A stretch of DNA of 34,012 nt from the IMG/VR virus record IMGVR_UViG_3300042465_007188, positions 1 to 34,012 of that record, one strand, 5' to 3'. Source of the DNA: a virus. Both the position numbers and the translations under genes were made by a program. Shown piece by piece: positions 29,705-34,012 of this stretch; position 1 is the first letter of the stretch; the number at the start of each line of letters is the position of its first letter. The notes beneath the pieces are model-generated. The model worked only from the letters and a program-made list of their open reading frames with translations. It was not told the origin of the DNA and did not search any database.

Positions 29705-29998
29705 TCACGAGCCGATCGGCTCCTCGTCGTCGTGGGCGCGGTTGCGGCGCCAATTGCCTGGCCACTCGTCCTCGATGGCCTGCCAGGCCTCGAGCTCCTC
29801 GCGGCTTGGCTTGCGGGCGGGGATGCTGCGCGGCTCGAGGCCGGCGCGGCGGTGCTGGTCGTAAAGCCACGCGGTGATGGCGCCGACGCTCGGGCTCGGG
29901 CCAAGTTCCTCGAGGAGCCGGGCTACGATGGCCCAGTCGGGCTTGCCCTCGTGCTCCGCGAGGTGCGTGATGCGCGGCAAGTGATACCACGCGATCAC
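29705..29998 (-). CDS. Hypothetical 97-codon protein between helicase and resolvase
   Basis: The product (WYHLPRITHLAEHEGKPDWA, IVARLLEELGPSPSVGAITA, WLYDQHRRAGLEPRSIPARK, EDEWPGNWRRNRAHDDEE) is mostly helical. Its start GTG at 29998 overlaps the helicase stop as GTGA. No family is recognised. Coupling to the helicase and resolvase suggests a replication-linked function, for example a loader or primase accessory, but the sequence shows no zinc or ATP motifs. An upstream start at 30049 would lie inside the helicase gene and is rejected. Confidence 0.7.
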   Translation of the reverse strand: MIAWYHLPRITHLAEHEGKPDWAIVARLLEELGPSPSVGAITAWLYDQHRRAGLEPRSIPARKPSREELEAWQAIEDEWPGNWRRNRAHDDEEPIGS

Positions 29999-31335
29999 GG
30001 CGCCACCTCGTAGCGCTCGCGCACCTCGTCCCAGCGCATGGGGAGCCATGCCGGCCGGCCTTCGCGGGCCTTCTGCACCGAAAGGATCGGCGTGGCGCCC
30101 GGCTCTTGCTGCGTTCCCGGGATCGGGCGCGTGAGGAGGAGCACCGTGTCCGCGTGGCGGAGGACCGCGTACGAATCCCCGATCATGCCGCGCGTGGCCT
30201 GGGTGCCGGCCTTCTCGGCCTCGCGGTTGAGCTGCGCGAGCGCGAGGACCGGCACGTCAAGCGTGCGGGCCAGGGCTTTGAGCCGGCGCGCGTACTCTCC
30301 GAGGAGCTCGTGCCGCTCGGTGCGTCGGCGGGCGTCCTCTCCGGTCGGCTCGAGGATGCCGAGGTAGTCCACGACGATGAGGCCGAGGCGCTGGCCGTCG
30401 TCGGCGAGGCGGGCGGCCATGGCCTTGGCGCGCATGGCCACGTGGTCCGTGGTCTGGCCCGGGTCGCATGACCAGTCCACGCGGAAGCCCACGTCCACGA
30501 TCGCGGTCACGGCGCGGAGGAGCTCTCGGTATGCCTGGGCCTGGAGCTCGCGCGGGAGCATCTCGGGGCGGTGCTCGCACCCGTACTCTTGCCGCGCCAC
30601 GCGGGCGAGGTTGGCGCTCGCGCTCATCTCGAGGCCGACGAATAGGCACCAGGTCCCGGCGGCGTGGCAAGCGCGCGCGTACTGGATGCCGAGGACCGTC
30701 TTGCCCACGCCGGTGGCGGCCGCGAGGATTGTGAGGCTTCCGGGCGTGAGCTGGACGCATTGGTCAAGCTCCGGCCACGGGCTCGGGGTCGATGCGCGGG
30801 TCTGGGCCTGTAGGCGCTCGATGAGCTCGTGCGCGGCCTCGCGAGTTGTTTGGATGCCGCGGCGCACGTCGTCGGTTGCCGGCGCGATGCGCTCGAGGAG
30901 CTCCTTGCGTAGGGCCTCGGGGCTCTCGCGCATGGCCTCGGCTCGGCCGGTGAGCTCGCGCGTTACGCGGACGAGTTCGCGGAGCTCGTGAGCGTGGCGA
31001 AGGTCGTGAACGATTTCCTCCGCGCGCTCGTCGCTCGTGAGGCCTCCGCGGGTGAGGTATTCCTCCGAGGCATCGCGCGCGCTCTGAAACCAGGTGCGCC
31101 ACGAGGGCGAAGCCGGGTGCGCCTTGCTCTTGGCAGCCTCCTCGGCGACGGCGGCGGCCTCGAGAGGTTCGCCGCGCATGTCCACCGACTTGCACGCGGT
31201 CCACCATGCGGCGGCCGATGCTTGGCCGAACGTCGTGGCGTCGATGGCCTCGAGGAGCCGGGCCCGTGCCGCGTTGGAGCATCGGAGGACGTGGACGCAT
31301 GCGGCGAGCTCCACCTCCGTTCGGATCATCGTCAT
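29995..31335 (-). CDS. DnaB-like replicative helicase
   Basis: This 446-residue protein should unwind phage DNA ahead of the host replisome. The N-terminal 150 residues are a DnaB N-like helical region (RARLLEAIDATTFGQASAAA, ELVRVTRELTGRAEAMRESP). The RecA-like core has Walker A AATGVGKT at 206-213, LFVGLEMSASANLARVARQE at 231-250, Walker B LIVVDYLGIL at 319-328, LALAQLNREAEKAG at about 364-377, and the hairpin/finger region KAREGRPAWLPMRWDE near the end. It has no primase domain. The ATG at 31335 overlaps the stop of the replication gene as ATGA; a second ATG lies two codons later. With the preceding gene it forms the usual initiator/loader plus helicase pair of theta-type phage replication modules. 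Confidence 0.9.
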   Translation of the reverse strand: MTMIRTEVELAACVHVLRCSNAARARLLEAIDATTFGQASAAAWWTACKSVDMRGEPLEAAAVAEEAAKSKAHPASPSWRTWFQSARDASEEYLTRGGLTSDERAEEIVHDLRHAHELRELVRVTRELTGRAEAMRESPEALRKELLERIAPATDDVRRGIQTTREAAHELIERLQAQTRASTPSPWPELDQCVQLTPGSLTILAAATGVGKTVLGIQYARACHAAGTWCLFVGLEMSASANLARVARQEYGCEHRPEMLPRELQAQAYRELLRAVTAIVDVGFRVDWSCDPGQTTDHVAMRAKAMAARLADDGQRLGLIVVDYLGILEPTGEDARRRTERHELLGEYARRLKALARTLDVPVLALAQLNREAEKAGTQATRGMIGDSYAVLRHADTVLLLTRPIPGTQQEPGATPILSVQKAREGRPAWLPMRWDEVRERYEVAP

Positions 31336-31985
31336 GGCAAAGCCTTCGGTGCAAACCGTGGGATGCCCACGGCCTCGAGGGTTGGGCGCTGGGTGCGCGT
31401 GGCGGTTACGGGTTGCCGAGTCGGGTCGGCCTTGGCGAGCCAGTTGCGGAAGGCGGCGTCCCAGTCCGCGCACCGGCGGTCATGGGCCTGGGCGTGGTCG
31501 CGGAAGCGCTCGGCCTGCCACTCCACCGCCAGGCCTCGACTCTCGGCCGCGGCGCGGTGCGCTGCGGTAGGGGCCCACGCGTCGGGGATGCGGACGGCGG
31601 GGCGCTTGCGCGGAGAGAGAGTCTCTCTCTTCTCCTCTTCTCTCGTCTCGTCTCGTCTAGCCGTTACGTCACGTGTCGTAACGTTACATGACGTGTCGTC
31701 ACGTGACGTGATGTCACCGGCTTGGGCAACCTTCCGGCGGCTCCGGTTGGTTCGCGCGCGCTGGGCGATGAGCGGGCCGAGCATGGCCTCGAGCGTGCGC
31801 CAAAGGTTCATGGCCTCGAGCTGGGCCTTGGCGGCCTCAAGGGCTTCGGGGAGCTCGTCCGTTTCCCGCGCGACGCGATGCTCCGTCACGCGTAGGTGCG
31901 CCTTGGCGAGCTCAACGTGCCCAAGGTCGAGGAGAAGGAGGAGGCGGGCGTCGTCCGCGAGCTCCCTGCGATACCATCCGGCCAT
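31332..31985 (-). CDS. Replication protein with DnaT-like C-terminal module and an embedded origin
   Basis: The 217-residue product likely recruits the helicase to the origin. Residues 1-85 are helical (WYRRELADDARLLLLLDLGH, ALEAAKAQLEAMNLWRTLEA). Residues 91-124 are low-complexity, Thr/Arg/Asp/Glu-rich, and are coded by a repeat-rich DNA tract (31612-31716). Residues 136-185 (AWAPTAAHRAAAESRGLAVE, FRDHAQAHDRRCADWDAAFR, NWLA) match the DnaT/replication-loader module that binds single-stranded DNA. The overall plan, a DNA-binding protein whose own gene contains the origin, followed by the helicase, resembles lambda O and P. The ATG at 31985 with GGAAAG upstream is preferred; the GTG at 32009 is possible. 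The protein is well conserved at its end, but no helicase-loader ATPase is present. Confidence 0.8.
   Translation of the reverse strand: MAGWYRRELADDARLLLLLDLGHVELAKAHLRVTEHRVARETDELPEALEAAKAQLEAMNLWRTLEAMLGPLIAQRARTNRSRRKVAQAGDITSRDDTSCNVTTRDVTARRDETREEEKRETLSPRKRPAVRIPDAWAPTAAHRAAAESRGLAVEWQAERFRDHAQAHDRRCADWDAAFRNWLAKADPTRQPVTATRTQRPTLEAVGIPRFAPKALP
31612..31716. other. Putative replication origin inside the replication gene
   Basis: This tract has a short inverted repeat AGAGAGA/TCTCTCT (31614-31628), a long pyrimidine-rich run on the plus strand (31622-31660) with TCTCG three times in tandem, two similar 19-base repeats at 31662-31680 and 31682-31700 (16 of 19 equal), and perfect palindromes GTAACGTTAC (31678-31687) and CGTCACGTGACG (31697-31708). 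Nothing else in the window is so dense in short repeats. By analogy with lambda, where iterons lie in the O gene, it is the best origin candidate. Confidence 0.6.
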
Positions 31986-32010
31986 GCTGCGATCTTTCCG
32001 TGGTCGCACG

Positions 32011-32039
32011 TTGACGCGGACGCGGAAATCGCGTACGTT
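32011..32039 (+). promoter_or_regulatory. Plus-strand promoter-like pair before a hairpin with T-run
   Basis: TTGACG (32011-32016) and TACGTT (32034-32039) are separated by 17 bases. The -35 agrees in five of six positions, and the -10 has the key T, A and final T. It points away from the replication gene, toward the hairpin at 32060-32092. No plus-strand gene is here, so it would drive only a short RNA. Confidence 0.5.
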
Positions 32040-32045
32040 TGGCGT

Positions 32046-32100
32046 GCGTGGTTGTTATCGGCCCCGGACCGCTTGCGACGGTTTCCGGGGCCTGTCTTTT
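32046..32100 (+). ncRNA. Predicted short antisense-oriented RNA (oop-like position)
   Basis: A transcript started by the promoter-like pair at 32011-32039 would begin near 32046 and end at the T-run after the hairpin at 32060-32092, about 55 nucleotides. It lies in the 142-base gap (31986-32127) between a small zinc-finger gene and the replication gene, on the strand opposite to all genes. Lambda oop RNA has the same placement: starting beside the O gene, moving away from it and ending at the gene before. The RNA is predicted only from these signals; no conservation can be tested here. Confidence 0.4.
32060..32100 (+). terminator. Rho-independent terminator on the plus strand
   Basis: GGCCCCGGA (32060-32068) pairs exactly with TCCGGGGCC (32084-32092). 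An inner CCG/CGG pairing (32069-32071 with 32079-32081) leaves a seven-base loop. TGTCTTTT follows at 32093-32100. On the minus strand the hairpin is not followed by a T-run, so as a terminator it works for plus-strand transcription, or acts as a leader structure for the minus strand. Confidence 0.65.
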
Positions 32101-32127
32101 CTACGCGCGTTCCGTGGACGGTGCAAC

Positions 32128-32343
32128 CTAGAAGAGGTCGCGCTGTCGGGGGTCTTTGGGTCGCTCGGGCTCGGTGCAATTGGCGTGGCGCTTGCCAAAT
32201 TGGCGGGTGGCCTCCACGAGCTCCACGACGTTGATGGGCACGGCGAGGCGGAGGGCTCCCTCGCACCGGCCGCAGTAGACCACGAGGAGCTTGGTTCCCG
32301 GGGTCTGGTGCACGGTCACGAAATCGGGGATTCGGTCACTCAT
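32128..32343 (-). CDS. Small zinc-finger-like protein, 71 residues
   Basis: The product (MSDRIPDFVTVHQTPGTKLL, VVYCGRCEGALRLAVPINVV, ELVEATRQFGKRHANC) has Cys24, Cys27, His53 and Cys56, a likely single zinc site, with a C-terminal basic tail (RPKDPRQRDLF). Proteins of this pattern are common in phage early regions and are thought to bind nucleic acids, though roles are unknown. The ATG at 32343 overlaps the preceding gene by eight bases; an upstream extension to 32505 lies inside that gene. Its 3' end is next to the plus-strand terminator, so the predicted small RNA would run toward but stop short of it. Confidence 0.75.
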   Translation of the reverse strand: MSDRIPDFVTVHQTPGTKLLVVYCGRCEGALRLAVPINVVELVEATRQFGKRHANCTEPERPKDPRQRDLF

Positions 32344-33309: not shown

Positions 33310-34012
33310 GCCTTCACCTCTTGCGTGGTCGTGTAGCTGGTGGCCTTGGCGCACTCGGCGATTTCCGAGTCGGTGGCGCCGTGGAAGCGGGCCACGGCCT
33401 CGAGGGCCTTGGCGTCCATGCTCGAGCGCGTGCGCGTCACCGACACGAGGCGCTTACCACCCGGAAGCGGCACCGGGTCCGCGACGGCCATGGCCTTGAT
33501 CTCGTCCTCGATGAGCTCGAGGCGCTTCTTGGCCTGGCGGAGCTCGAGCCAAATCTCCCCGGCGCGCTCGCGCGTCACCGGGCCCGGGCCGGCCGGGGCG
33601 ATGATGGCGGACATGGCGGAAAGCTGGGCGGGGCATGCGAGCTGCGCGGGGCAGTATTTGCACTCGGGCCCGCGCTGGAGGCGGAGCTCCCCGCGGCGCG
33701 CCACGGCGGCGGCCTCCGCGAGGGTCTCGATGTGCGTGGCGAGCTGCGTACGGTTGAACGTGCGGACGCTCACGAACGCGCGCTCGCACCCGGGCGGCGC
33801 TTGAACGATGAGCGCATGGAGCTCCTCGAACTCCACGAAGCGCCGGGACGTTGCCACGGCGGCCATGAGGGTGGCAAGCTGCGGGGAGCTCGAGGCCTCC
33901 ACGCGTTCCTGGCCGAACTTCCAATCGGCGACGATGAGCACGCGGCGCCCGTCGCGGTCGAGGCCGAACGCAATCAGGTCCGCGGTCCCCGGGAGCACGT
34001 GCGCGGGGAGGT
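33306..34012 (-). CDS. Cas4/DUF2800-like nuclease, C-terminal part (right copy)
   Basis: This partial gene enters at the window end within codon 111 of the full protein and continues to the stop at 33306 (234 residues visible). It repeats the nuclease core (GTADLIAFGLDRDGRRVLIV, ADWKFGQ) and the cysteine cluster (ECKYCPAQLAC), and adds the C-terminus: RERAGEIWLELRQAKKRLEL, PLPGGKRLVSVTRTRSSMDA, EAVARFHGATDSEIAECAKA. In the overlap it differs from the left copy in four residues (E for D, V for A, N for S, Q for E). The left copy (1-715) gives the missing N-terminus. The two are best read as one gene from a circular genome, not two paralogues, because the frame closes exactly. Confidence 0.85.
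   Translation of the reverse strand, partial: LPAHVLPGTADLIAFGLDRDGRRVLIVADWKFGQERVEASSSPQLATLMAAVATSRRFVEFEELHALIVQAPPGCERAFVSVRTFNRTQLATHIETLAEAAAVARRGELRLQRGPECKYCPAQLACPAQLSAMSAIIAPAGPGPVTRERAGEIWLELRQAKKRLELIEDEIKAMAVADPVPLPGGKRLVSVTRTRSSMDAKALEAVARFHGATDSEIAECAKATSYTTTQEVKA
33629..34012. repeat. Right copy of the 384-bp terminal overlap
   Basis: This matches bases 1-384 with 12 substitutions and no gap. Removing one copy leaves 33,628 bases and restores the nuclease gene. Five of the 12 substitutions fall within about 25 bases (left copy about 126-150), the rest are scattered. Confidence 0.9.

Follow-up and report, generated by a model that had tools for sequence, protein, structure and literature searches.

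A predicted oop-like antisense transcription unit conserved beside the replication initiation gene in uncultured bacterial viruses

The oop RNA of phage lambda has been debated for decades as a primer, as an antisense RNA of cII, or as a brake on transcription through the origin. Related themes are found in the antisense RNAs of plasmid copy-number control (ColE1 RNA I, R1 CopA, and pT181 RNA I) and in F Frpo and the M13 minus-strand origin, which are single-strand promoters. In lambda, the oop promoter pO converges on pR, and inactivation of pO raises pR transcription and impairs replication, a defect explained by the excess pR transcription; a role of oop RNA as a primer was tested and disfavoured (PMC3985674). 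Fifty-two bases of oop RNA overlap cII (PMC5869508).

Here, we analyze a locus in a 34,012-nt stretch of viral DNA (the window) whose likeness to pO-oop-tO is one of layout and not of sequence alignment. As in lambda, a promoter lies next to the start of the initiator gene and is directed away from it, a short RNA would stop next to the preceding gene, at an intrinsic terminator, and the initiator gene carries iterons and is followed by a replication-helicase function (PMC3985674, PMC5869508). The succession of preceding gene, oop-like unit, iteron-bearing initiator, and helicase thus reproduces the lambda order cII-oop-O-P. We consider it probable, at roughly two in three, that the locus is an antisense transcription unit encoded in cis, with the pO-oop-tO design, and that it tunes transcription of the replication gene (rep) and the origin. 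The features of the locus are as follows.

32011..32016, plus strand: -35 box TTGACG of the predicted pO-like antisense promoter (TYGAC in 16/16 elements)
32017-32033, plus strand: 17-nt spacer between the boxes
32034..32039, plus strand: -10 box TACGTT (TAnnnT in 14/16 elements; 17-nt spacer in 16/16)
32046..32101, plus strand: predicted antisense RNA of ~55 nt, its start placed by a conserved TGC ~7-8 nt past the -10 box
32060..32092, plus strand: predicted tO-like terminator hairpin H2, 9 + 3 bp (folds; arm-swap test P<5e-5, tip 2e-4, relatedness of the sequences partly ignored)
32060-32068 and 32084-32092, plus strand: H2 arms GGCCCCGGA and TCCGGGGCC, 9 bp, with inner CCG/CGG
32093..32101, plus strand: T-run TGTCTTTTC 3' of H2, kept in all relatives
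32005..32048, minus strand favoured: hairpin H1 around the promoter (within-class P 6e-5 for H1 as a whole in minus-strand sense)
32005-32010 and 32043-32048, minus strand favoured: outer arms of H1
32020-32024 and 32030-32034, minus strand favoured: inner stem of H1, within the spacer
31332..31985, minus strand: replication initiation gene in an O-like position, ATG at 31985 (PHROG 1032/1408, E 2e-6 / 5e-6)
31662..31717, no strand assigned: 10-bp-phased iteron array inside rep, a candidate origin (repeats and counterparts in relatives)
29995..31335, minus strand: DnaB-like helicase gene after rep (Pfam DnaB_C, E 5e-31; PHROG 19)
32128..32343, minus strand: small CxxC gene ahead of the element, conserved in some relatives but not all

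The sequence features of the oop-like unit in the window are confirmed. A preliminary description of this DNA had read TTGACG, a 17-nt gap, TACGTT, about 20 further nucleotides, a 9-bp GC hairpin, and a T-run, and the sequence agrees: positions 32011-32101(+) hold the two boxes at this spacing, the stem begins 20 nt past the -10 box on the plus strand, and the hairpin is followed by TGTCTTTT. A scan for complete units (a -35 box, a gap of 16-18, TAnnnT, a perfect stem of at least 8 bp, and a T-run) returned this one alone on both strands of the 34-kb window and none in 100 dinucleotide shuffles, and it is the sole case in the window of a perfect 9-bp stem followed by at least five T. With a likely start near G32046, the RNA would be ~55 nt long, and its predicted fold has an energy of -23.9 kcal/mol (z -2.0). 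The unit was said to start beside the replication gene, to point away from it, and to end beside the preceding small gene, and the coordinates bear this out, the -35 box lying 25 bp upstream of the ATG at 31985 and the T-run ~27 bp short of the end of the small gene at 32128. The identifiable genes of the window are on the minus strand, again as described. A stricter sigma-70 scan of the window (9 of 12) does not list the antisense promoter, and TACGTT is a weak -10 box relative to TATAAT, although the TAnnnT pattern is still satisfied.

Relatives were collected without the promoter ever serving as a selection criterion. The helicase as query identified six viral contigs at 61-69% identity, more were found with the small preceding gene as query, and others came from two terminator-type patterns, the terminator being the sole criterion for L100-L102. 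In fifteen further viral contigs the element lies 5' of a replication-region gene, and the comparison comprises 16 elements (the window, L001, L002, L003, L005, L006, L007, L008, L023, L035, L036, L037, L039, L100, L101, and L102). A -35 box TYGAC is present in all 16 and is followed in each by a spacer of exactly 17 nt, TAnnnT is found in 14 (the exceptions are TATCTC in L006 and CATCAC in L035), and a TGC lies at the expected transcription start, ~7-8 nt past the -10 box, in 14 of 14 non-redundant elements. No element has an indel between the boxes and several occur in each flank, which speaks for a real promoter. The T-run is present in all eight members found via proteins alone; for the remaining members the query itself included it. 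When the window is left out of its construction, a covariance model still retrieves the window element at 44.4 bits (E 3.5e-11 by a rough calibration), and its single other match is at chance level; strong matches to the model number one per genome.

Other searches set the bounds of this family. The initiator protein as a single query against viral contigs and the helicase against genome contigs found no relative, a terminator-pattern scan of genome contigs gave unrelated terminators only, and terminase and portal matched named phages distantly or not at all. A promoter-pattern scan with a spacer of 16 N gave 23 matches, all without the unit, which were used as background, and a further scan recovered two known members and one chance match. 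Rfam 15 covariance models gave no match to a described family at the gathering threshold or at E up to 5. As far as could be seen, this is a family of uncultured bacterial viruses that has an oop-like unit and shows no kinship to lambda.

The terminator is the best conserved part of the element, and its strand can be read from its pairing. Folded as antisense RNA, the H2 hairpins contain 144 Watson-Crick and 29 G-U pairs at a mean folding energy (dG) of -23.2, whereas the sense folds contain 143 and 6 pairs, respectively, at -16.6; the excess of wobble pairs (29 versus 6) assigns the terminator to the antisense strand. Of 13 aligned sequences, 12 retain a central U-G pair that would be an A-C mismatch in the sense RNA, and in L002/L037 and L008/L023 changes in the 3' arm preserve antisense pairing through wobble. 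Cognate H2 arms outpair swapped ones (P<5e-5), as do those of the tip within classes (2e-4), and the share of paired cells is 95.8%, compared with 89.2% in shuffles, all three tests partly ignoring the relatedness of the sequences. The relatives were the check proposed for the oop-like interpretation, and it is upheld: 15 keep the -35 box, the 17-nt spacing, the -10 box (with the two exceptions), the stem, and the T-run, paired changes occur in the stem, and the contrary pattern, a stem retained after loss of the T-run and promoter boxes, is seen in none. The prominence of H2 might suggest that it acts as an antisense terminator with no promoter of its own, guarding the rep operon from stray antisense transcription. 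We regard this as highly improbable, given the exactly spaced promoter boxes in all relatives, including the three found by terminator alone (promoter present in 3/3), and the conserved TGC at the expected start. A similar terminator, GCCCTCG..CGGGGGC, was observed in an unrelated neighbourhood in L090, L093, and L096, which carry DNA-polymerase-like and SleB-like genes.

A second conserved, covarying hairpin, H1, is absent from the preliminary description. Our comparison indicates that the promoter sits inside this hairpin, which appears to favour the minus strand, the strand that carries the rep mRNA leader and also templates the antisense RNA. Its outer arms are of the GGCAAGG/CCTTGCC type and its spacer stem varies (CGCGA/TCGCG, GTGGA/TCCAC, and GCGCC/GGCGC are examples). 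The register of the inner stem shifts between sequences, which made a column-based consensus unusable, and arm-swap tests were used instead: none of 100,000 permutations matched the cognate arms on the sense strand, against 7e-4 on the antisense strand, and within classes the values are 6e-5 and 0.019. Because conserved -35 and -10 bases oppose each other in H1, this strand preference is partly forced and is not independent proof. A double-stranded DNA operator was considered as the cause of the spacer palindrome and rejected, since neither the stem sequence nor the loop length is constant. To our knowledge, lambda has no counterpart of a conserved hairpin around the promoter.

The preference of H1 for the sense strand means that part of its conservation may serve the mRNA leader and not the promoter. 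Taken further, H1 (and H2) could act on the minus-strand transcript as a structured rep leader, for example shielding a ribosome-binding site or forming a processing site, with the antisense promoter boxes incidental. H1 is located shortly upstream of rep, shows greater stability and better covariation on the sense strand, and is retained in sense form by L035 despite its poor -10 box. We nonetheless find this explanation unlikely, as a leader needs neither an exact 17-nt spacer nor TYGAC and TAnnnT boxes, indels are tolerated in the flanking parts of H1 and not in the spacer, and H2 favours the antisense strand and has an antisense T-run.

The same hairpin permits a reading in terms of DNA, because H1 covaries and favours the template strand and the comparison cannot separate RNA from single-stranded DNA. 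A single-stranded template might fold into H1 near the origin, host RNA polymerase would start there, and its RNA would prime replication. Here the boxes lie in a template-strand hairpin near replication functions, as in F Frpo and M13, a likeness by description and not by sequence, and the promoter adjoins the iteron array and lies within a hairpin that covaries and folds best on the very strand templating the RNA. Yet promoter bases may dictate the sense preference of the middle stem, these phages are double-stranded and have a DnaB-type helicase, and the RNA, unlike those of F Frpo and M13, would end at an intrinsic terminator, which is not expected of a primer. The precedent for oop is likewise against priming (PMC3985674), and of the two roles first proposed for the RNA, regulatory or primer, the latter is the weaker; we judge a single-strand promoter that makes a primer very unlikely. 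A bolder proposal, in which H1 on the template strand is a single-strand promoter beside a double-stranded DNA phage origin and the short terminated RNA a primer or replication-start switch, or in milder form the antisense RNA opens H1 in the rep mRNA leader, seems to us quite unlikely. Were the milder form true, fast exchange of the element would give phage-specific replication control.

The neighbourhood of the unit bears on the antisense reading that we prefer. The element stays beside rep while the preceding gene (different in L035, L036, L039, L100, and L102) and the gene after rep (different in L035 and L039) vary. In most cases the next gene downstream encodes a replication initiator and contains iterons: iteron counterparts lie in rep of L001, L003, L006, L008, L023, L039, and L101, the last having a rep of another type that contains iterons of its own, and are not evident in L002, L005, and L035. 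The contigs of L036 and L100 end before rep would appear, and L001, L007, and L036 have an extra small gene between element and rep. An AlphaFold model of the window rep (pLDDT 74, pTM 0.36) had no meaningful PDB match. At 31600-31660, after the iterons and inside rep, lies a simple-sequence tract that is purine-rich on the minus strand, resembled by CAAGA tracts in L008 and L023; it is a possible unwinding element of the origin.

The element also changes quickly. L003 and L006 are 92-98% identical in the 100 nt preceding it and 88-100% identical from ~100 nt downstream of its start onward, but only 74% and 56% identical in its two 50-nt halves. L001 and L005 have a nearly identical upstream gene and helicase and a rep of different type between them, which suggests that a rep cassette starting at the element was exchanged as a module. 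Just past the small CxxC gene of L001 (~1716-1763), and at the same place in L005 and L017, is a strong hairpin preceded by a long A-run, a second predicted terminator for antisense transcripts. The ends of the window, 1-384 and 33629-34012, match at 96.9% without gaps (12 mismatches), an imperfect terminal duplication that perhaps stems from mixed-strain assembly of a circularly permuted genome.

What the sequence shows is the promoter and terminator architecture, its conservation, covariation, and strand preference, and its link to rep and iterons; that the unit is transcribed, and its role, we infer. A sigma-70-type promoter just upstream of the initiator gene would fire away from it, and an RNA of ~55 nt would stop at the intrinsic terminator before the preceding gene. 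The unit would thereby oppose upstream-derived transcription running through the initiator gene and its internal origin. Tuning would most likely arise by polymerase collision at the convergent promoter and by base pairing between the RNA and the leader of the rep mRNA, in which the RNA would cover the left arm of H1; in its 5' part the RNA is complementary to this left outer arm, so pairing could open H1. The geometry is that of lambda pO versus pR, which makes tuning of rep and origin transcription our best guess, and the most likely function would be convergent and antisense transcription that adjusts rep expression and transcription into the origin. Against the antisense unit we count the -10 exceptions in L035 and L006, the weak TACGTT, the sense preference of H1, a function proposed solely by analogy with lambda, the extra gene before rep in L001, L007, and L036, and the contig ends of L036 and L100 that fall short of rep.

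The unit also departs from its described counterparts. Compared with lambda oop, the ~55-nt RNA matches no described RNA family, the promoter is enclosed by a covarying hairpin, the helicase gene is itself DnaB-like and not a P-type loader, and the window unit does not overlap the preceding coding sequence, which sets it apart from a cII-type antisense RNA. Searches of seven genome records (32-42 kb, of uncertain completeness) gave no match to a tyrosine integrase, a serine resolvase, or CII (Phage_CII). As no CII was found and the preceding gene varies, cII-like gene regulation is unlikely as the conserved role; the conserved association is with replication. Plasmid copy-number RNAs resemble it as short antisense RNAs on a replication-gene leader and as fast-changing elements inside conserved flanks (here L003 versus L006), but the setting here is a phage rep operon with iterons.

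These results suggest that the use of an oop-like unit at a replication origin is more general than has so far been recognised. Its layout in phages seemingly without cII and lysogeny genes would make a replication-linked role separable from the lysogeny role, and 16 natural variants are available for testing the replication-linked role of such a promoter.
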